The notes under the pieces: generated by a model
Told to the model about the DNA's origin: nothing
The model's input: the letters and a program-made list of their open reading frames with translations, nothing else
Database searches by the model: none
Shown here: positions 1 through 59,967 of the stretch, piece after piece
Position numbering within the stretch: position 1 is the first letter of the stretch
Layout: every line of letters starts with the position of its first letter
Assembly (NCBI RefSeq): GCF_028532485.1
Contig: NZ_CP116942.1
Coordinates: 1,550,001 to 1,614,000 of the forward strand
Source of the DNA: Iamia majanohamensis
GTDB taxonomy: Bacteria; Actinomycetota; Acidimicrobiia; Acidimicrobiales; Iamiaceae
Length of the DNA stretch: 64,000 nucleotides
Direction: 5' to 3'
Program-made: the position numbers and the translations under genes

Positions 1-1
1 C

Positions 2-157
2 CCGTGGGTCACCGAGCAGCTGGGCCAGGGCTACCTGGCGGTGAACTGGGAGGCCACCGTCGACGAGGTGGCCGCCTTCATCCAGCCCCACCCGTCCCTC
101 TCGGAGAACTTCGGCGAGACCATCCTCTCGCTCACCGGCCGTGGCCTGCACGGCTGA
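2..157 (+). CDS. lpdA: Dihydrolipoyl dehydrogenase (E3), C-terminal end only
   Basis: Only the last 51 codons are present; the gene begins upstream of the window. The tail reads through a QPHPSLSENFGETIL segment, which matches the C-terminal interface end of dihydrolipoamide dehydrogenases, where the His-Pro and following Glu form the catalytic dyad of the partner subunit. E3 reoxidises dihydrolipoyl groups on E2 using FAD and NAD+. The next gene downstream encodes an E2 and the one after that makes lipoyl groups, which supports the call. Too little is visible to say which 2-oxoacid complex it serves. Confidence 0.75.
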   Translation, partial: PWVTEQLGQGYLAVNWEATVDEVAAFIQPHPSLSENFGETILSLTGRGLHG

Positions 158-160
158 CAC

Positions 161-215: not shown

Positions 216-1631
216 ATGGCCGAGATCCAGATGCCCCAGCTGGGCGAGACCGTCACCGAGGGCACCATCACGAAGTGGCTGAAGTCCGTCGGTGACGAGA
301 TCACCGAGGACGAGGCCATCGTGGAGGTGTCCACCGACAAGGTCGACTCGGAGATCCCCTCGCCCGTCAGCGGGACCATCACCGAGATCAAGGTCGAGGA
401 GGGCGACACCGTCGACGTGGGGGCCGTGCTGGCCATCGTCGGCGACGGCGACGCGGCCCCGGCCGCCGACGGCGGCGGCGAGGAGGCCGACGCCAGCGAC
501 CCGGAGCCCGAGCCCGACGCCGAGGAGGAGGCCCAGGACGAGGCCACCGAGCCGGAGGCGGAGCCCGAGCCCGAGCCTGAGCCGGAGCCGGCCCCCGAGC
601 CCGAGCCCGCACCGGAGCCGGAGCCAGCCCCCGCCACCGCGGCGGCGTCCGACGAGGGGCGGTCCGGCGGCGGGGCCGAGGGCATGGTCCTGTCGCCCGT
701 GGTGCGGCGGCTGGTCGCCGAGCACGACGTCGACGTGTCGTCCATCGAGGGCACGGGGGCCGGCGGGCGCATCACCCGCAACGACGTCCTCGCCGCCGTC
801 GAGGGCGGCCAGGCGGCCGCCGCCGCACCGACGGCCGAGCCCGAGGCCCCGGCCGCCCCGGCCCCGGCCGCGCCCCGGGCCCCCAGCCCGCAGCGGGTCA
901 CCCCGTCCACCCCGGGCGAGGCGTCCACCTCGGTGCCGTTCAACAACATCCGGCGCCGCACGGGCGAGCACATGGTGCGCTCCCAGGCCACCTCGCCCCA
1001 CGCCTTCACCGCCATGGAGGTCGACCTCGAGGGGGTGGAGCAGGTCCGCCGGGCCCACAAGGAGCGCTTCAAGGCCGAGTCCGGGGCCAGCCTGACCTAC
1101 CTCCCGTTCATCTCCCGGGCCCTGGTCGACGCGGTCGACGAGTTCCCCCACATGAACGCGAGCGTCGGCGACGGCGAGCTCATCGTCCACCACGACGTCA
1201 ACCTCGGCTTCGCCGTCGACCTCGGCTACGAGGGCCTCATCGTCCCCGTGGTGCACGGGGCCCAGGACCTGCGCCTCCCGGCCATCGCCCGGGCGGTGGC
1301 CGACCTGGCCGACAAGGCCCGCACCCGCAAGCTCTCGGCCGACGACATCAGCGGCGGCACCGCCACCATCACCAACGCCGGGGCGTCCGGCACCCTGCTG
1401 CAGCTGCCCATCATCAACCAGCCCCAGGTGATGATCCTCTCCACCGAGGGGGTCGTCCGTCGTCCCGTCGTGGTCACCGACGCCGCCGGCAACGAGGCCA
1501 TCGCCATCCGCTCGGTCGGCAACCTCACCCTCGGGTGGGACCACCGGGCCTTCGACGGCGCCTACGCCGCCGCCTTCCTGCGGCGCATGGTCGACATCCT
1601 CGAGCAGCGGGACTGGGAGGCGGAGCTGTAG
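216..1631 (+). CDS. Dihydrolipoamide acyltransferase (E2) of a 2-oxoacid dehydrogenase complex
   Basis: This E2 core protein (471 aa) carries an acyl group on a swinging lipoyl arm and passes it to CoA. In order it has one lipoyl domain (residues 1-75, Lys42 in the TDKVDS motif), a long acidic Glu-Pro/Ala-Pro linker, a peripheral-subunit binding domain near 155-190 (GAGGRITRNDV), a second Ala-Pro linker, and a catalytic domain ending in HRAFDG (His443, Asp447). AGGAG at 201-205 fits the ATG start. The E3 gene precedes it and LipB-LipA overlaps its stop. Whether it is the succinyl-, acetyl- or branched-chain enzyme cannot be decided here; actinobacterial SucB often has more lipoyl domains. Confidence 0.92.
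   Translation: MAEIQMPQLGETVTEGTITKWLKSVGDEITEDEAIVEVSTDKVDSEIPSPVSGTITEIKVEEGDTVDVGAVLAIVGDGDAAPAADGGGEEADASDPEPEPDAEEEAQDEATEPEAEPEPEPEPEPAPEPEPAPEPEPAPATAAASDEGRSGGGAEGMVLSPVVRRLVAEHDVDVSSIEGTGAGGRITRNDVLAAVEGGQAAAAAPTAEPEAPAAPAPAAPRAPSPQRVTPSTPGEASTSVPFNNIRRRTGEHMVRSQATSPHAFTAMEVDLEGVEQVRRAHKERFKAESGASLTYLPFISRALVDAVDEFPHMNASVGDGELIVHHDVNLGFAVDLGYEGLIVPVVHGAQDLRLPAIARAVADLADKARTRKLSADDISGGTATITNAGASGTLLQLPIINQPQVMILSTEGVVRRPVVVTDAAGNEAIAIRSVGNLTLGWDHRAFDGAYAAAFLRRMVDILEQRDWEAEL
560..640 (+). repeat. Glu-Pro/Ala-Pro codon repeat in the E2 linker
   Basis: A low-complexity run of GAG/CCC/CCG/GCC codons encodes alternating Glu-Pro and Ala-Pro dipeptides. Such stiff extended linkers let the lipoyl domain swing between active sites in E2 proteins. 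The acidic character is stronger than in the second, Ala-Pro-rich linker near 820-900. Confidence 0.8.
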
Positions 1632-3349
1632 TGGCGCCCGGGGTCCCGCCGCTGCACGTCCGCTGGCTGGGTCGCGTCCGCTACCGCGACGCCCTCGCCC
1701 TCCAGCGGGGCCTGCACCGCACACCGGGCCACGACCACCTGCTCCTGCTCGAGCACCCGAAGGTGTTCACCCTCGGGGTCCGGGCCGACCTGTCCCACGT
1801 GCTGGTCCCGCCGGCCGAGGTGGGCGCCGAGCTGGAGCGGGCCGACCGGGGCGGCGACGTCACCTACCACGGCCCCGGCCAGCTCGTCGGCTACCCGATC
1901 CTCACCGTCCCCGGGGCGGCCGGCGGCTCCAAGCCCGACACCCCCGCCTTCGTCCACGGCGTGGAGCAGCTGGTCATCGACGCCCTGGCCGAGCTGGGCG
2001 TGGTCGCCGGGCGCCTGGAGGAGTACCCGGGGGTCTGGGTCGACGTCGACGGGCCCGAGCCCCGGAAGATCTGCGCCATCGGCGTGCGCCTCACCCGGGG
2101 CCGGTCGATGCACGGCTTCGCCCTCAACGTCGACCCCGACATGGAGATGTTCCGGGCCATCGTCCCCTGCGGCATCGCCGACCGGCCCGTCACCTCGCTG
2201 CGGGCCGAGGGCGTCGAGGCGACCATGGCCGAGGTGGTCGACGTCGTCGCCCGCCTGGCCGGCGAGCGGTGGGGGGCGGGTGGGGTCGACCGGGCCGACG
2301 TGGTGTGGCGCACGTCCGCCGCCGACCTGGCGCCCTTCAGCCGGGGCGAGGGCCCGGGCGAGGACGCCCAGCGGGTGCCCGACGGGCTCCGGGGCGCAGC
2401 CCAGGAGGGCACCTCGGCCCGTCGGCTCGGCCGCCTGGCCGACGCCGGGGTCGACCAGGCCGTGTCCATCTCGGCCCGCAAGCCGGACTGGATGAAGGCC
2501 CGGTTCCGCATCACCGACGACTACCGGCGCCTGAAGCACACCCTCCGCGACCTCGACCTGGTCACGGTGTGCGAGGAGGCCGGCTGTCCCAACATCTTCG
2601 AGTGCTGGGCCGACGGCACGGCCACGTTCATGATCAACGGCGAGCGCTGCACCCGGGCGTGCGGGTTCTGCCTGGTCGACACCCGCCACCCGCAGCCCCT
2701 CGACGCCGGCGAGCCCGGGCGGGTGGCCGACGCGGTCGAGCGCATGGACCTGGCCCACGCCGTGGTCACCGCGGTGGCCCGCGACGACCTGGACGACGGC
2801 GGCGCCGCCGCCTTCGCCGCCACCGTGCGCGCCATCCGGGCCCGCCGCCCGGCGACCGCGGTCGAGGTGCTGATCCCCGACTGCAAGGGCGACCCCGACG
2901 CCCTGGCCACGATCTTCGACGCCCGGCCCGACGTGCTCAACCACAACCTGGAGACGGTCGCCCGCCTCCAGCGCGCCGTGCGGCCCTCGGCCTCCTACGC
3001 CCGCAGCCTGGCCGTGCTGGCCCGCGCCGGGGAGGCCGGGCTCACCACCAAGTCGAGCCTCATCGTGGGCCTGGGCGAGACCGTCGAGGAGATCCACCAG
3101 GCGCTGGCCGACCTGGCCGCGGTCGGCACCGACATCGTGACCGTGGGCCAGTACCTCCGTCCCACCACCCACCACCTCCCGGTGGCCCGCTGGTGGACCC
3201 CCGAGGAACTGGCGGCGGTGGCCGAGGTGGGCGAGGCCATGGGCATCGGCCACGTCGAGGCCAGCCCCCTCACCCGCTCGAGCTACCACGCCCGCCAGGC
3301 CGCCGAGGCGGTCTCGGAGGCGCCGGTGGCCGTCGGCCACCCCGGCTGA
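1631..3349 (+). CDS. lipB-lipA: Bifunctional octanoyltransferase / lipoyl synthase (LipB-LipA fusion)
   Basis: One 572-residue open frame contains both steps of lipoate synthesis. Residues 1-235 are LipB: RGGDVTYHGPGQLVGYP at 73-89, RKICAIGVR with Lys146, and catalytic Cys180 in the PCG motif. Residues 283-572 are LipA: auxiliary cluster cysteines C314, C319 and C325, radical-SAM cysteines C340, C344 and C347, and the terminal RSSYHA motif. A 45-residue variable linker joins them. The GTG start overlaps the E2 stop by one base (TAGTG). LipB moves octanoyl from ACP to E2 apoproteins and LipA inserts two sulfurs, so the product modifies the neighbouring E2. No stop or frameshift separates the halves. 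Confidence 0.93.
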   Translation: MAPGVPPLHVRWLGRVRYRDALALQRGLHRTPGHDHLLLLEHPKVFTLGVRADLSHVLVPPAEVGAELERADRGGDVTYHGPGQLVGYPILTVPGAAGGSKPDTPAFVHGVEQLVIDALAELGVVAGRLEEYPGVWVDVDGPEPRKICAIGVRLTRGRSMHGFALNVDPDMEMFRAIVPCGIADRPVTSLRAEGVEATMAEVVDVVARLAGERWGAGGVDRADVVWRTSAADLAPFSRGEGPGEDAQRVPDGLRGAAQEGTSARRLGRLADAGVDQAVSISARKPDWMKARFRITDDYRRLKHTLRDLDLVTVCEEAGCPNIFECWADGTATFMINGERCTRACGFCLVDTRHPQPLDAGEPGRVADAVERMDLAHAVVTAVARDDLDDGGAAAFAATVRAIRARRPATAVEVLIPDCKGDPDALATIFDARPDVLNHNLETVARLQRAVRPSASYARSLAVLARAGEAGLTTKSSLIVGLGETVEEIHQALADLAAVGTDIVTVGQYLRPTTHHLPVARWWTPEELAAVAEVGEAMGIGHVEASPLTRSSYHARQAAEAVSEAPVAVGHPG

Positions 3350-3488: not shown

Positions 3489-4583
3489 ATGACGGGCGCA
3501 CGGCCCCCGGTGGGGCGGCGGGCGGTCGCCCGGGCGCCGGTGCGCGTGGCCGACGTCGGCGGCTGGACCGACACCTGGTTCGCGGCCCGCGGTGCGGTCT
3601 GCTCGGTCGCGGTGGGTCCGGGTGCCACCGCCGAGGTGCGCGTGCGCCCCTGCGCCGGGCGGCCCCCGGTGCGCATGTGGGCCCCGGACCTGGCCGCGTC
3701 CTGGTCCCTGCGACCCGACGGGGACGACGGCTGGCGGCGTCCCCGGCCCGGGGCGCAGCCCCTGCTCGACCACGCCGTCGGCCTCGTCCTCGAGGGGCTG
3801 CCCGACGGGGTCGTGGGCGACGAGGGCGTGGCCCTCGACGTCGCCGTGCGCGCCGCCGTGCCGCCGGGCTCCGCGGTCGGGACCTCGGCCGCGGTCCTGG
3901 TCGCACTGGTGGCCGCGGTCGGCGCCGCCCTCGACCGGCCCCGGACCCCGGAGGCCGCCGCCCGGGACGCCTACGAGGTCGAGGCCGGGCGGGTCGGCCG
4001 GGAGAGCGGCGTGCAGGACCAGGTGGCGGCCGCCTTCGGCGGCGTGTCGTGGATCGAGGTCGACCCCCACCCCGGCTGGCGCCGCGCGCCGGTGGCCCTG
4101 CCCGCCGGGACGGGGGCAGCGCTGGCCGAGCGGCTGGTGACGGTCCACCTGGGCGGGGGCCACGACAGCTCGGTGCTGCACCGGGTGGTCATCGAGGCGG
4201 CCGAGGCGGGCGACGCCGAGGTCCTCGCCGCCCTGGCCGAGCTGCGCGGCCTGGCCGCCCTGGCCCGGCGCCACCTGGCCGCGGGCGACCTGGCCGGGTG
4301 GGGCACCGTCCTCACCGCCGCCACCCAGGAGCAGGCCCGTCTGCACCCGGCCCTGGTGGGCGACGACGCCCGGGGGGTCATGGACCTCGGCGCCGCGCAC
4401 GGGGCCCGGGGTGCGAAGGTCAACGGTGCGGGCGGGGCCGGGGGCACGGTGACCCTGGTCGGCCCGGAGGACCCCACCGCCCGGCTCGCCCTCGAGCGGG
4501 CCCTGGTCGACGCCGGACGGGGCTGGGAGGTGCTCGACCTCGTCCCCTGCGGCGGCCTCGAGGTCGTCGTCACCGATCCCTGA
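3489..4583 (+). CDS. GHMP-family sugar kinase
   Basis: This 364-aa protein has the three GHMP kinase motifs. An N-terminal RVADVGGWTDT segment resembles the substrate loop of heptose and fucose kinases, VPPGSAVGTSAAVLVAL is the glycine/serine ATP loop, and a C-terminal GAKVNGAGGAGG is motif 3. The GGWTD signature points to the D-glycero-D-manno-heptose-7-phosphate kinase / fucokinase branch, which would phosphorylate a sugar for nucleotide-sugar synthesis. The exact substrate is unknown. No strong ribosome binding site or TANNNT box precedes the ATG. It converges on the small membrane protein genes and stands 140 bases after LipB-LipA. Confidence 0.8.
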   Translation: MTGARPPVGRRAVARAPVRVADVGGWTDTWFAARGAVCSVAVGPGATAEVRVRPCAGRPPVRMWAPDLAASWSLRPDGDDGWRRPRPGAQPLLDHAVGLVLEGLPDGVVGDEGVALDVAVRAAVPPGSAVGTSAAVLVALVAAVGAALDRPRTPEAAARDAYEVEAGRVGRESGVQDQVAAAFGGVSWIEVDPHPGWRRAPVALPAGTGAALAERLVTVHLGGGHDSSVLHRVVIEAAEAGDAEVLAALAELRGLAALARRHLAAGDLAGWGTVLTAATQEQARLHPALVGDDARGVMDLGAAHGARGAKVNGAGGAGGTVTLVGPEDPTARLALERALVDAGRGWEVLDLVPCGGLEVVVTDP

Positions 4584-6565: not shown

Positions 6566-8038
6566 CTACTTGGCTCCCTGGCGCAGCAGCACCACCGGGA
6601 CGGTCTTGGCCAGGATGGCGAGGTCGATGAGCAGCGACCAGTTGTCCACGTAGTACAGGTCGAGGCGGGTGTAGTCCTCGAAGGAGCTCTCGCTGCGCCC
6701 GTTGACCTGCCACATGCCCGTGATGCCGGGGGTGACCCGCAGGCGCTGGGTGAGCAGGGGGTCCCAGGCCTCGGTCTCGTGGGGGAGGGCGGGGCGGGGG
6801 CCCACCAGGCTCATCTCGCCCCGGATGACGTTCCAGAGCTGCGGCAGCTCGTCGATCGAGGTGGTGCGCAGCACCTTGCCCACCCGGGTGACCCGGGGGT
6901 CGTCGGTCATCTTGAACAGGGGCCCGTCGGCCTCGTTGGCCTCGAGCAGCTCGGCCCGCCGCTCCTCGGCGTCGACCACCATCGTCCGCAGCTTGATGAC
7001 CTGGAAGGGGCGGCCGTTGCGGCCCACCCTCACCTGGCGGAACAGCACGGGTCCCCGGCTGTCGAGGCGGATGGCGACCATGGCCGCGAGCAGGACCGGG
7101 CTGGCGGCGAGGAGCGTGAGGGAGGCGAGGGCCACGTCGAAGACCCGCTTGGCGGTCCGGCGCCAGCCGTCCCGCTGCACCGGCTCCACGTAGACCACCG
7201 GGAAGCGACCCAGGGGGCGGACGACCAGCCGCTGGGAGGCGATGTCGCGCAGCGTGGACGACAGCTCGACGTGCACGCCGCGGTCGAGGAGGTCACGGGC
7301 CAGCCGGTTGGTGGTGGCGCTCTCGATGGCCGAGGCGGCGACGATCACCGAGGCCCCCCGCCGGGCCTGGAGGATCTCCCCGGCGTCGGCCACGGTGCCG
7401 AGCAGCGGCACGCCCGGCACCGGCTCGGGGTCGGTGACGGTGTCGTCGACGAAGCCGAGCACGTGGTAGCCGAGCCAGGCGTCGGTGCGGAGCATGGCGG
7501 CCAGCTCGCGGCCCTCGGGGTTGGCGCCGGCGATGACGACGTTGCGCACCATGCGGCCCCGGGCGCGCATGGCGGCGAAGGTGCGCCGGGCGACCTCCCG
7601 CTCGGCGGTGACGAGCAGCGTGGTGGCGACGAACAGCACGATGATGCGGGAGCGGGGGAGCTCCAGGTCGACGAAGAAGGCGGCCAGCGCCACCCCCATG
7701 GAGCCGAGGAAGGTGGCGTTGACGATGCGGCGCACCTCGTCGATGCGCCGACCGATGAAGCGGATGTTGTAGAGGCGCTGGCCGGCGAAGATGGCCAGCC
7801 ACACCGGGAGCGTGCTCATCACCAGCAGCACGAACTCGGCGTCGCTGGTGCCCACCCGGGCCCCGTTGCCCAGCGGGTCGACGACGAGCACGCTGATCAC
7901 CGCGGCCACCACGACCGTCACCAGGTCGATGGCCCCGAGGGCCGTCTTGGGGTCGACGCGGAGTGGTCGGTCGCCCTCGACGGCGACCGGGGGCGCCCCC
8001 ACGCCGACGTCGTCCGAGGCTGCCTGGGCCAGGCTCAT
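6566..8038 (-). CDS. Polyprenyl-phosphate sugar-1-phosphate transferase (EPS priming enzyme, WbaP type)
   Basis: This 490-aa membrane enzyme would start exopolysaccharide synthesis by moving a sugar 1-phosphate to undecaprenyl phosphate. The N-terminal half has about four or five transmembrane segments and a CoA-binding-like Rossmann region (RNVVIAGANPEGREL). The C-terminal bacterial sugar transferase domain (about 290-490) begins with a re-entrant helix (KRVFDVALASLTLLAASPV) and contains LFRQVRVGRNGRPFQVIKLRTM-type and SIDELPQLWNVIRGEMSLVG motifs. Start chosen at the ATG preceded by GGAAGGGGGGTGG; upstream in-frame codons look non-coding. It is the last gene of the minus-strand EPS cluster, 167 bases after the BY-kinase. 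Confidence 0.92.
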   Translation of the reverse strand: MSLAQAASDDVGVGAPPVAVEGDRPLRVDPKTALGAIDLVTVVVAAVISVLVVDPLGNGARVGTSDAEFVLLVMSTLPVWLAIFAGQRLYNIRFIGRRIDEVRRIVNATFLGSMGVALAAFFVDLELPRSRIIVLFVATTLLVTAEREVARRTFAAMRARGRMVRNVVIAGANPEGRELAAMLRTDAWLGYHVLGFVDDTVTDPEPVPGVPLLGTVADAGEILQARRGASVIVAASAIESATTNRLARDLLDRGVHVELSSTLRDIASQRLVVRPLGRFPVVYVEPVQRDGWRRTAKRVFDVALASLTLLAASPVLLAAMVAIRLDSRGPVLFRQVRVGRNGRPFQVIKLRTMVVDAEERRAELLEANEADGPLFKMTDDPRVTRVGKVLRTTSIDELPQLWNVIRGEMSLVGPRPALPHETEAWDPLLTQRLRVTPGITGMWQVNGRSESSFEDYTRLDLYYVDNWSLLIDLAILAKTVPVVLLRQGAK

Positions 8039-8085
8039 CGCGGTGCCACCCCCCTTCCGGTGTCGTGTCCGGGTGACGGTCACAG

Positions 8086-8091
8086 AGAGTA
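8086..8091 (-). promoter_or_regulatory. Possible -10 box TACTCT for the priming transferase
   Basis: The 167-base gap between the BY-kinase and this gene contains TACTCT on the minus strand, about 47 bases before the ATG, leaving a leader with a strong purine-rich ribosome binding site. No -35 match is obvious, so this is tentative. Confidence 0.35.
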
Positions 8092-8205
8092 GTCGATCTT
8101 CGGGGCCGCGCCACCCTTCGAAGTGGGGACGGCCGTGCCGGTGGCGCACGCCCCACCCCCGGGTGACGGGGCGGTGGCGCGCCGGCGACGTCGGGGGGTG
8201 CCCGC

Positions 8206-9741
8206 TCAGGGGCGGATCCCGTAGGCGTAGGCCCCGGCCGACCGACGGCTGGTGTCGCTGTCGTTGTTGAGGGCCGCGCCCAGGACCCGGGCGCCGGCGA
8301 GGGACAGCTCGGTGCCGGCCTCGGCCACCTGGGCGGTGCCCGCCTGGGCCTGGGACACGACCATGAGGGTGGCATCCAGGGCCGGCGCCAGCACGAGGAC
8401 GTCGGCCACGGCCAGCACCGGGGGGGTGTCGACGATGACGTGGTCGAAGCCGTGGCCCAGCTCGAGGATGGCCCGGGCGGTGGTGTCCGAGCCGAGGAGG
8501 TCGGTGGGGGTCTCCACCTCCGAGCCCCGCGTGACGACGGTGAGGTCGCCGACCCGGTGCTCGACGTCGTCGATGGTGGCCCGACCCAGCAGCAGGTCGG
8601 AGAGGCCGGGGGCGGCGGGGAGGTCGAACATCTCCTCCACGCCGGCCCGGCGGAGGTCGGCGCCGATGAGGATGACCCGGCGCCCGCCCTGGGCCAGCGC
8701 CACGGCCAGGTTGGCGGCCACGGTGGTCTTGCCCTCGTCGGCGACCGAGCTGGTGATGGCCAGGGTGCGCACCCCGTCGGCCTGGCCCGCGAGCAGCACC
8801 GAGGTGCGGAGGCGGCGGAACGCATCGGCCTCGGTGCCGGCCGGGGCGTGGACGGTGACCAGCCCGGTGCTGGGGTGGCGGAACCGCTCCGGGAACACGG
8901 GGATCGTGCCGAGGGTGCTGACCCCGAGCGTGCGCTCGAGGTCCGCCGCGCCCCGCACCCGCGTGTCGAGGCGGTCGAGCACGAAGGCCGCGCCCAGCCC
9001 GAGGAGGAGCCCGGCGGCCAGCGCCGCCGCGAGGGTGCGGGCCAGGCCCCGGGGCTGGGGGCCCTGGGGGAGGCGGGCCGGGGTGATGATGGTGCCCCCG
9101 TCGACGAGGGTGGCCTCCACCTCGGTCAGCTCGGTGGTGAGGTCGCTCAGGGTGGAGCGGGCGCTGTCGATGGCGTCCTGGGCCTCGGCCTCCTCGGTGC
9201 TGCCGGCCTCGGCGGCGTCGCGCAGCTCGACCTGGGCGGCGATGTTCTCCTCGGTCGCGTCGATGCGCTCCTGGTAGGTGGCGGCGCGCTCGTCGACCGT
9301 GGCCTGCTGCTCCTCCTGCTTCTGGGCCACGTAGGCCTCGGCGAAGGCCTGGGCCCCGGCCTGGGCCGCCTCGGGGTCCGACGCGGTGAAGGAGATGCTC
9401 AGGATCCGGGCCTCCGACGGGGACTCGGCGACGACGTGGCCGAGGAGGTCCCGGGTGTCCTGGTCGCCGGGCAGCTCCTCGGCGGCGCGGGCCGCGACCA
9501 GCTCGGACTGGACCACCTGCAGCTCGGTCTGGACGTCGGCGATGGCCTCGGCGGGGGTCTGGGTCTGGGCCGGGTCCGGCAGGGCGACCTGGGCCGTGGA
9601 CCGGTAGACGTCGGGGCGGGTCAGGCCGTAGGCCGCCCCCAGCAGCAGGCAGACGGCGACGACGGCCCCCACCACCAGGGCCCGCCGTCGCACGACGCCC
9701 AGGTAGTCACCGAGCTCGACCGAGCCTGGATCAGTGGCCAT
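8206..9741 (-). CDS. Wzz/BY-kinase: polysaccharide chain-length determinant with tyrosine-kinase ATPase domain
   Basis: The 511-aa protein combines a Wzz domain (transmembrane segments near residues 22-42 and 235-255, with a long coiled coil between them in the periplasm-equivalent) and a cytosolic CpsD/CapB-like ATPase. The ATPase has Walker A (SSVADEGKTT) and Walker B (HVIVDTPPV). Walker A' reads VILIGADLRR, where the family consensus is IDxDLR, so its first Asp is Gly. There is no C-terminal tyrosine cluster; only two tyrosines occur, in the last eight residues. It should regulate chain length with the neighbouring ligase and flippase. It begins 48 bases after the flippase stop. Confidence 0.87.
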   Translation of the reverse strand: MATDPGSVELGDYLGVVRRRALVVGAVVAVCLLLGAAYGLTRPDVYRSTAQVALPDPAQTQTPAEAIADVQTELQVVQSELVAARAAEELPGDQDTRDLLGHVVAESPSEARILSISFTASDPEAAQAGAQAFAEAYVAQKQEEQQATVDERAATYQERIDATEENIAAQVELRDAAEAGSTEEAEAQDAIDSARSTLSDLTTELTEVEATLVDGGTIITPARLPQGPQPRGLARTLAAALAAGLLLGLGAAFVLDRLDTRVRGAADLERTLGVSTLGTIPVFPERFRHPSTGLVTVHAPAGTEADAFRRLRTSVLLAGQADGVRTLAITSSVADEGKTTVAANLAVALAQGGRRVILIGADLRRAGVEEMFDLPAAPGLSDLLLGRATIDDVEHRVGDLTVVTRGSEVETPTDLLGSDTTARAILELGHGFDHVIVDTPPVLAVADVLVLAPALDATLMVVSQAQAGTAQVAEAGTELSLAGARVLGAALNNDSDTSRRSAGAYAYGIRP

Positions 9742-58185: not shown

Positions 58186-59967
58186 CTACTCGATGACGAG
58201 GACGACGTCGTTGGCGTTGACGGCCTGGCCGGCCTCGACCTTGATCTCGGCCACGGTGCCGTCCTTGTCGGCGACGATGGTGTTCTCCATCTTCATGGCC
58301 TCGAGCAGGCACACCGTCTGGCCGGTGGTGACCTCGTCGCCCACCGCGACGGTGACCTTGACGATGGTGCCCTGCATGGGCACGACGACCGAGCCCGACC
58401 CGGCCGCGGCGGCGGAGCCGCCGGCCGTGCCCTTGCGGCGGGGCCGGAGGGCCCCTCCGCCGCCGGCGTCACCCGCGACGGGGGCCGCCGCCGAGGCCGG
58501 GACCCACATGGCCACCGAGAACCGCTTGCCGTTGACCTCGACGTCGACGTCGCGCCGCACCTTCTCCTCGGGCTCGTCGCCCTCGCCCGGGGCGGCGGCG
58601 GGGTCGACGACGTCGGTGACGCCCGAGAGGTCGAGGACCTCCTCGACCCACTTGGTGGAGTGCCGGGCGGCCTTGAAGTCGTCGTGGCCGAGGATGGCGA
58701 GGTCGGCCGGCAGGGTGGTCTTGATGCCGTCGACGGTCATCTCCCGGATGGCCCGCTGCATGCGGGCGATGGCCAGGTCGCGGGTGCCGGCCCACACGAC
58801 GAGCTTGCCGACCAGGTTGTCGTAGAACTGGCTGACCTCGTCGCCGGCCATGTAGCCGCCGTCCCAGCGGATGCCGGGGCCCTGGGGCACCGACAGGTCG
58901 GTGATGCGCCCGGGGGAGGGGATGAACTTGCCGCCGGCCGGGTCCTCGGCGTTGACCCGGACCTCGATGGCCCAGCCCCGCAGGTCGATGTCGTCCTGCG
59001 AGAACGAGAGGGGCTCGCCCGAGGCGACGAGGATCTGCTCGCGCACCAGGTCGATGCCCGACACCAGCTCGGTCACGGGGTGCTCGACCTGGAGGCGGGT
59101 GTTCATCTCGAGGAACCAGAACTCGCCGTCCTGGTAGAGGAACTCGACGGTGCCGGCGTTGACGTAGCCGCAGGCCAGGGCCACGTCGACGGCGGCCTGG
59201 CCCATGGCCCGGCGGGTCTCCTCGGGGAAGTCGGGGGCGGGGGCCTCCTCGACCAGCTTCTGGTGGCGGCGCTGGGCCGAGCAGTCGCGCTCGCCCACGT
59301 AGACGCCGTTGCCGTGGCTGTCGCAGACGATCTGCATCTCCACGTGGCGGGGCTTGGTGAGGTAGCGCTCGACGTAGCACTCGTCGCGCCCGAAGCCCTT
59401 GAGCGCCTCGGATTGGGCCGACTCGAGGGCGCTGTGGGCCTCGGCCGCGCTGGGGACGACGCGCATGCCGCGACCGCCGCCGCCGTAGGCCGCCTTGATG
59501 GCGACGGGCCAGCCGTGCTCCTCGCCGAAGGCGACGACCTCGTCGCCGCTCTGGAGGAACTCGGTGGTGCCGGGGACGCCGGCCACGCCCGCCTCCTGGG
59601 CCGCGATGCGGCTGGAGACCTTGTCGCCCATGACCTCGATGGCCTCGGGCGGCGGGCCGATGAAGGTCACGCCCTTCTCGGTGATGGCCCGGGCGAAGTC
59701 GGTGTTCTCGGAGAAGAAGCCGTAGCCGGGGTGGACGCCGTCGGCCCCGCACTGCTCGATGACCTCGAGGATCTTCTCGGTGTTGAGGTAGCTCTCCGCC
59801 GCGGTCTGGCCGCCGAGGGAGTAGGCCTCGTCGGCGAGGCGGACGTGCAGGGCGTCCCGGTCGAGGTCGGAGTACACCGCGACGGAGGTGATGCCCATCT
59901 CCTGGCAGGCACGGATGACGCGGACGGCGATCTCGCCCCGGTTGGCGATGAGGATCTTGGAGAGCAC
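58186..59967 (-). CDS. Acetyl/propionyl-CoA carboxylase alpha chain (biotin carboxylase plus BCCP)
   Basis: The 593-aa protein has a biotin carboxylase half (residues 1-450) with the ATP-grasp loop YGGGGRGMRVV near 163, HPGYGFFSEN at about 80, and the conserved EMNTRLQVEHPVTE stretch at about 290. After a Gly/Ala-rich linker, the C-terminal biotinyl domain holds AMKMEN with the biotin Lys559. It would carboxylate biotin for a separate beta subunit (acetyl- or propionyl-CoA carboxylase). BirA is encoded divergently 150 bases away. The GTG follows TAGGAA by six bases, an imperfect box. Confidence 0.93.
   Translation of the reverse strand: MLSKILIANRGEIAVRVIRACQEMGITSVAVYSDLDRDALHVRLADEAYSLGGQTAAESYLNTEKILEVIEQCGADGVHPGYGFFSENTDFARAITEKGVTFIGPPPEAIEVMGDKVSSRIAAQEAGVAGVPGTTEFLQSGDEVVAFGEEHGWPVAIKAAYGGGGRGMRVVPSAAEAHSALESAQSEALKGFGRDECYVERYLTKPRHVEMQIVCDSHGNGVYVGERDCSAQRRHQKLVEEAPAPDFPEETRRAMGQAAVDVALACGYVNAGTVEFLYQDGEFWFLEMNTRLQVEHPVTELVSGIDLVREQILVASGEPLSFSQDDIDLRGWAIEVRVNAEDPAGGKFIPSPGRITDLSVPQGPGIRWDGGYMAGDEVSQFYDNLVGKLVVWAGTRDLAIARMQRAIREMTVDGIKTTLPADLAILGHDDFKAARHSTKWVEEVLDLSGVTDVVDPAAAPGEGDEPEEKVRRDVDVEVNGKRFSVAMWVPASAAAPVAGDAGGGGALRPRRKGTAGGSAAAAGSGSVVVPMQGTIVKVTVAVGDEVTTGQTVCLLEAMKMENTIVADKDGTVAEIKVEAGQAVNANDVVLVIE

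Follow-up and report, generated by a model that had tools for sequence, protein, structure and literature searches.

A fused octanoyltransferase–lipoyl synthase gene is the standard arrangement across the class Acidimicrobiia

LipB and LipA catalyze consecutive steps of an essential cofactor pathway. In the 64,000-nucleotide stretch of the Iamia majanohamensis genome analyzed here (the window) a single open frame of 572 codons appears to encode both of them. The locus raises the question of whether this frame is a genuine fused gene, and, if so, how widely it occurs, how it arose and what would be gained by holding the two enzymes in one chain. With octanoyl-ACP as the donor, LipB passes through an octanoyl-Cys intermediate and transfers the octanoyl group to the lipoyl lysine, after which LipA adds two sulfurs (PMC9307952; PMC12246082).

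The frame, named lipBA herein, is open from its GTG to the TGA at 3347–3349, and both of its domains score above their family cut-offs, which agrees with an earlier, sequence-only reading of the window that had described a single uninterrupted LipB–LipA fusion. A longer version beginning at the GTG at 1535 (604 aa) would start inside the gene for the acyltransferase E2, and homology of the product to its relatives begins only at approximately residue 3–8; for these reasons, the start is likely at 1631 (Table 1). This GTG shares one base with the E2 stop codon TAG (1629–1631; junction TAGTG), and the overlap with the E2 gene claimed in the same reading amounts to that single base. Because lpd precedes the E2 gene and lipBA overlaps it, the three likely form an operon, lpd–E2–lipBA. 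The E2 gene was found immediately 5′ of the fused gene in 92 of 104 fused loci.

Table 1. Position of lipBA, its domains and the adjoining upstream genes in the window
Feature	Position	Strand	Details
3′ end of lpd (dihydrolipoyl dehydrogenase, E3)	1..158	+	family by sequence inspection; full gene begins upstream of the window, L162 5210–6658
E2, SucB_Actino-type dihydrolipoamide acyltransferase	216..1631	+	one lipoyl domain (~222–437); 1-nt overlap with lipBA
lipBA, fused octanoyltransferase–lipoyl synthase	1631..3349	+	572 aa, GTG start, TGA stop
LipB domain, residues ~8–215	1652..2275	+	Pfam/NCBIfam; catalytic Lys146 (2066–2068), Cys180 (2168–2170)
Variable linker, residues ~216–261	2276..2413	+	conservation and fold confidence lowest at 240–260
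LipA domain, residues ~262–560, with N-terminal extension as in M. tuberculosis LipA	2414..3310	+	Pfam/NCBIfam, conservation, 5exk alignment

The Pfam matches in the lipBA product were LplA-B_cat (18–207), LIAS_N (281–319) and Radical_SAM (338–494). The LipB half passed the NCBIfam cut-offs of TIGR00214 (135.4 bits; cut-off 83.55) and NF010925 (171.5; cut-off 155), and the LipA half those of TIGR00510 (329.2 bits; cut-off 310.25) and PRK05481 (387.2; cut-off 203). The latter half carries the cysteines of the auxiliary cluster (Cys314/319/325, CX4CX5C) and of the radical-SAM cluster (Cys340/344/347, CX3CX2C), as well as the motif RSSYHA at residues 549–554. In 105 full-length relatives, the LipB residues Lys146 and Cys180 and all six of these LipA cysteines were conserved in 100%, while RSSYHA was nearly invariant (Ser551, 100%; Ser550, 99%). 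Judged by these residues, both halves look active; in the sequence-only reading, the two catalytic sites had been described as apparently intact. The linker behaves differently: the gap between the matched LipB and LipA domains ranges from ~19 to 170 residues across loci, and its sequence is poorly conserved.

Each half resembles its stand-alone counterpart. Like the LipB of M. tuberculosis (1w66) and other stand-alone forms (2qhs; TIGR00214/NF010925), the first half comprises the whole domain with its Cys/Lys dyad (1w66: 45% identity, VIA Z 29.3), but it runs in frame into LipA, whereas elsewhere in Actinomycetota lipB is a separate gene, often adjacent and upstream of lipA. The second half shares CX4CX5C, CX3CX2C and RSSY with stand-alone LipA/LIAS (M. 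tuberculosis 5exi/5exj/5exk, human LIAS 8tsk; TIGR00510), and residues 262–565 align with 5exk (Z 42.8, 52% identity); residues 262–283 are the counterpart of the N-terminal extension of M. tuberculosis LipA, with which the model aligns from residue 262. It differs from stand-alone LipA in that its N-terminal extension is joined to LipB, and from other actinobacterial LipA in consistent changes, with H553 in place of R and Q447 in place of F.

Taken alone, this one sequence is weak evidence of fusion, since a 60-codon linker at 82% GC would be open and in frame by chance in ~21% of cases in this genome. However, matches to lipBA were present in 56 of 61 relatives and in 189 of 197 Acidimicrobiia genomes, mostly as one frame over both halves, and the named records among the closest matches were mostly from Acidimicrobiia or Acidimicrobiales. 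The sequence-only reading had suggested searching related genomes for both domains in one protein, and had named a stop or frameshift in the linker as the result that would speak against it; both domains were kept in one frame, with the linker open, in the ~125 Acidimicrobiia loci fetched. Matches flagged as split or as having a stop inside also proved to be fused, in 20/20 of the first batch and in 21/21 read of the second (from which G193 and G202 were left out because of contig breaks), the stop being the one that ends the gene. In one reduced family, six members with genomes of ~1 Mb and 33–34% GC were fused as well, and at such a base composition an open linker is unlikely to arise by chance. 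Conservation of the fusion in more than 100 relatives, some of 33% GC, removes the doubt about a chance linker. The LipB–LipA fusion is thus the standard arrangement across the class Acidimicrobiia and no oddity of this genome, contrary to the rarity that had been implied earlier. That an assembly or sequencing error joined two genes in this genome, as the chance of ~0.21 for an open linker might allow, is ruled out for practical purposes by the same fusion in ~125 loci from many separate assemblies, including single-contig and 33% GC genomes.

Two exceptional records were seen in the class. One genome (G106) holds a separate second lipB–lipA pair beside its fused copy (contig C83:2400–3961), which may stem from contamination or from gene transfer. 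In another locus (L086, 2998–4627), on a low-coverage metagenome contig, the fused gene has a frameshift inside LipB, probably an assembly error.

An open frame could also be fused in part only nominally, if a start inside the linker gave LipA alone in addition to the long product. Two codons in the window might serve: GTG at residue 278 (2462), which is in frame, and GTG at residue 249, which has a 4-base Shine-Dalgarno-like match. However, the linker had fewer start codons per 100 codons than control stretches within the fused genes (5.45 vs 6.4–9.1), those with a Shine-Dalgarno match fell inside the control range (0.86 vs 0.46–1.08), and only 11 of 105 relatives have GTG at codon 278, which is mostly CTG or CTC. 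Moreover, every lineage retains the frame, and internal initiation would not depend on this. Because linker starts are not enriched and none is conserved, a separate LipA product, which the sequence-only reading had also put forward as grounds for rejecting the fusion, is quite improbable. The fused chain may be split by proteolysis after translation.

Outside the class, the arrangement is different. In 22 loci from Nocardia, Mycobacterium, Streptomyces, Cellulomonas and other actinobacteria, LipB was either encoded by a gene of its own or not nearby, and the fusion was found in 0/20 fetched loci from other families of the phylum, which again had two genes or no LipB nearby. When LipB was nearby in out-of-class loci, it usually directly preceded LipA on the same strand. 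In a sample of the whole phylum, the listed out-of-class matches that spanned both halves all had a stop between the halves, although a fusion listed as two far-down matches could be overlooked in this sample; among the best matches with annotation in plasmid records, only separate genes were seen. In phylogenetic trees, a branch with SH-aLRT 86 set the fused LipA sequences apart, while the LipB tree needs three changes, of which its starred branches force only one; this tree allows a single origin without recovering one by itself. As separate lipB and lipA genes are often neighbors, in this order, in other actinobacterial classes, the fusion most likely arose once from joined neighbors, by loss of the stop and spacer between them at or near the base of Acidimicrobiia.

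In the complete, single-contig genome of 4.58 Mb, lipBA is the sole copy of lipB or lipA, and no second copy of either was found elsewhere in it. A short LplA/LipM-like protein with weak family scores is encoded near an rsmH-like gene (L114 1423–2082, − strand; genome 2550174–2550662) and is a possible lipoate scavenging or transfer enzyme. Since lipBA is the only copy and the match of this protein to known ligases is weak, the lipBA product is probably the sole de novo lipoyl route in the genome. By inspection, there are two lipoyl-domain proteins in the genome, the adjoining E2 and GcvH. Two other strong Biotin_lipoyl matches were rejected as lipoyl substrates because they carry an AMKM/SMKM biotin motif, and a fifth match was weak and located in a stretch with fatty-acid-synthesis-like genes. 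In the window itself, ~58192–58389 (− strand) belongs to an acyl-CoA carboxylase alpha chain with its biotin domain at the C-terminus (EAMKMEN).

The architecture, the conservation of the catalytic residues and of the fusion, the gene order and the single copy point, with high probability, to one bifunctional enzyme of single origin for the last two steps of lipoyl cofactor assembly, a 1:1 tethered pair probably coupled behind lpd and the E2 gene. In the proposed reaction, the LipB half would take octanoate from octanoyl-ACP as a thioester on Cys180, with Lys146 as general acid/base, and pass the octanoyl group to the lysine of the lipoyl domain in E2 and in GcvH. Through radical-SAM chemistry, the LipA half would then insert two sulfurs, into C6 and C8. 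lipBA would probably be co-transcribed with lpd and the E2 gene and translationally coupled behind them. The likely benefit would be an equimolar enzyme pair held at the lipoyl domain, with octanoyl-E2 reaching LipA at once.

How closely the two sites cooperate was considered with AlphaFold models of the lipBA product and of a divergent relative (~52–53% identical, with a different linker), each of which had a pTM of 0.92. Structural alignments of LplA-type chains with the LipB part also drew in a LipA helix, the same one in both models (456–468, equivalent to 436–449). A pTM of this value, high for a two-domain chain, and the helix common to both models suggest a fixed, conserved arrangement of the LipB and LipA domains, and lend indirect support to the direct passage of octanoyl-E2 between the sites that the sequence-only reading had considered possible. 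On the other hand, the wide variation of the linker in length and sequence disfavors a precise conserved tunnel and is equally consistent with simple tethering.

Two readings of the tethered pair follow. In the first, the fusion matches the dosage of the two enzymes without any catalytic hand-over, and the mobile lipoyl domain diffuses between the sites. We regard this as evenly balanced between right and wrong: it fits the poorly conserved linker, and separate adjacent genes suffice in other actinobacteria, but the fusion persists throughout the class, even in the streamlined 1 Mb genomes, and the whole-chain pTM is high in two divergent members. In the second, the lipoyl domain docks on a surface shared by the two active sites, and in its octanoylated form it would move from LipB to LipA without being released. 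The two models, in which one LipA helix recurs close to the LipB part, are consistent with such proximity channelling, as is the E2 gene lying directly upstream in most fused loci, whereas the variable linker argues against it, and the reading is possible but somewhat doubtful. Conserved LipA residues specific to the fusion were set aside as an interface signal, since they may reflect the LipA lineage only. The most demanding version, a structurally fixed enzyme that throughout the class hands the octanoyl-lipoyl domain to the sulfur-insertion site without release, is rather unlikely; if true, it would provide a natural single-chain lipoyl assembly enzyme, usable to trap the complete reaction sequence. 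Direct hand-over of a protein-bound intermediate is hard to test with separate proteins, and the natural fusion of LipB and LipA offers a single-chain system for such a test.

Other fusions in lipoate metabolism have been described, and lipBA differs from them. The family LplA_LipA_fuse (NCBIfam NF053790, bifunctional lipoate–protein ligase/lipoyl synthase) also carries lipoyl synthase behind an acyl-attaching enzyme on a single chain, but its N-terminal part is, by name, a lipoate–protein ligase and not LipB; the lipBA product scored 340.3 bits against the cut-off of 800, and only its LipA half matched, aligning to positions 331–605. The fused ligases Lpl(AB) and Lpl(BA), the latter nearly confined to Actinomycetota, are likewise gene fusions in lipoate assembly, but they join the catalytic and accessory domains of a ligase, not two successive synthesis steps (PMC10332631). 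No description of a LipB–LipA fusion was found in the part of the literature covered, in which PMC10332631 treats other fusions only. lipBA therefore represents familiar enzymes in an apparently undescribed, class-wide architecture, although the fused proteins are very likely already present in sequence databases. The fusion is a possible marker for the class Acidimicrobiia. It also bears on annotation: a survey that treats LipB and LipA as two genes may overlook one half of each protein or label it wrongly.

Downstream of lipBA, the window contains a GHMP-type sugar kinase-like gene (3489–4583, + strand) with a weak match to the heptose kinase HddA and to mevalonate kinase. Of 104 loci, only one had such a gene close to its fused gene, the flank being limited in most of them. 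Further along, the region 6566–9741 (− strand) holds, by inspection, polyprenyl glycosyl-phosphate transferase-like and Wzz/tyrosine-kinase-like genes, and resembles the start of an exopolysaccharide cluster.
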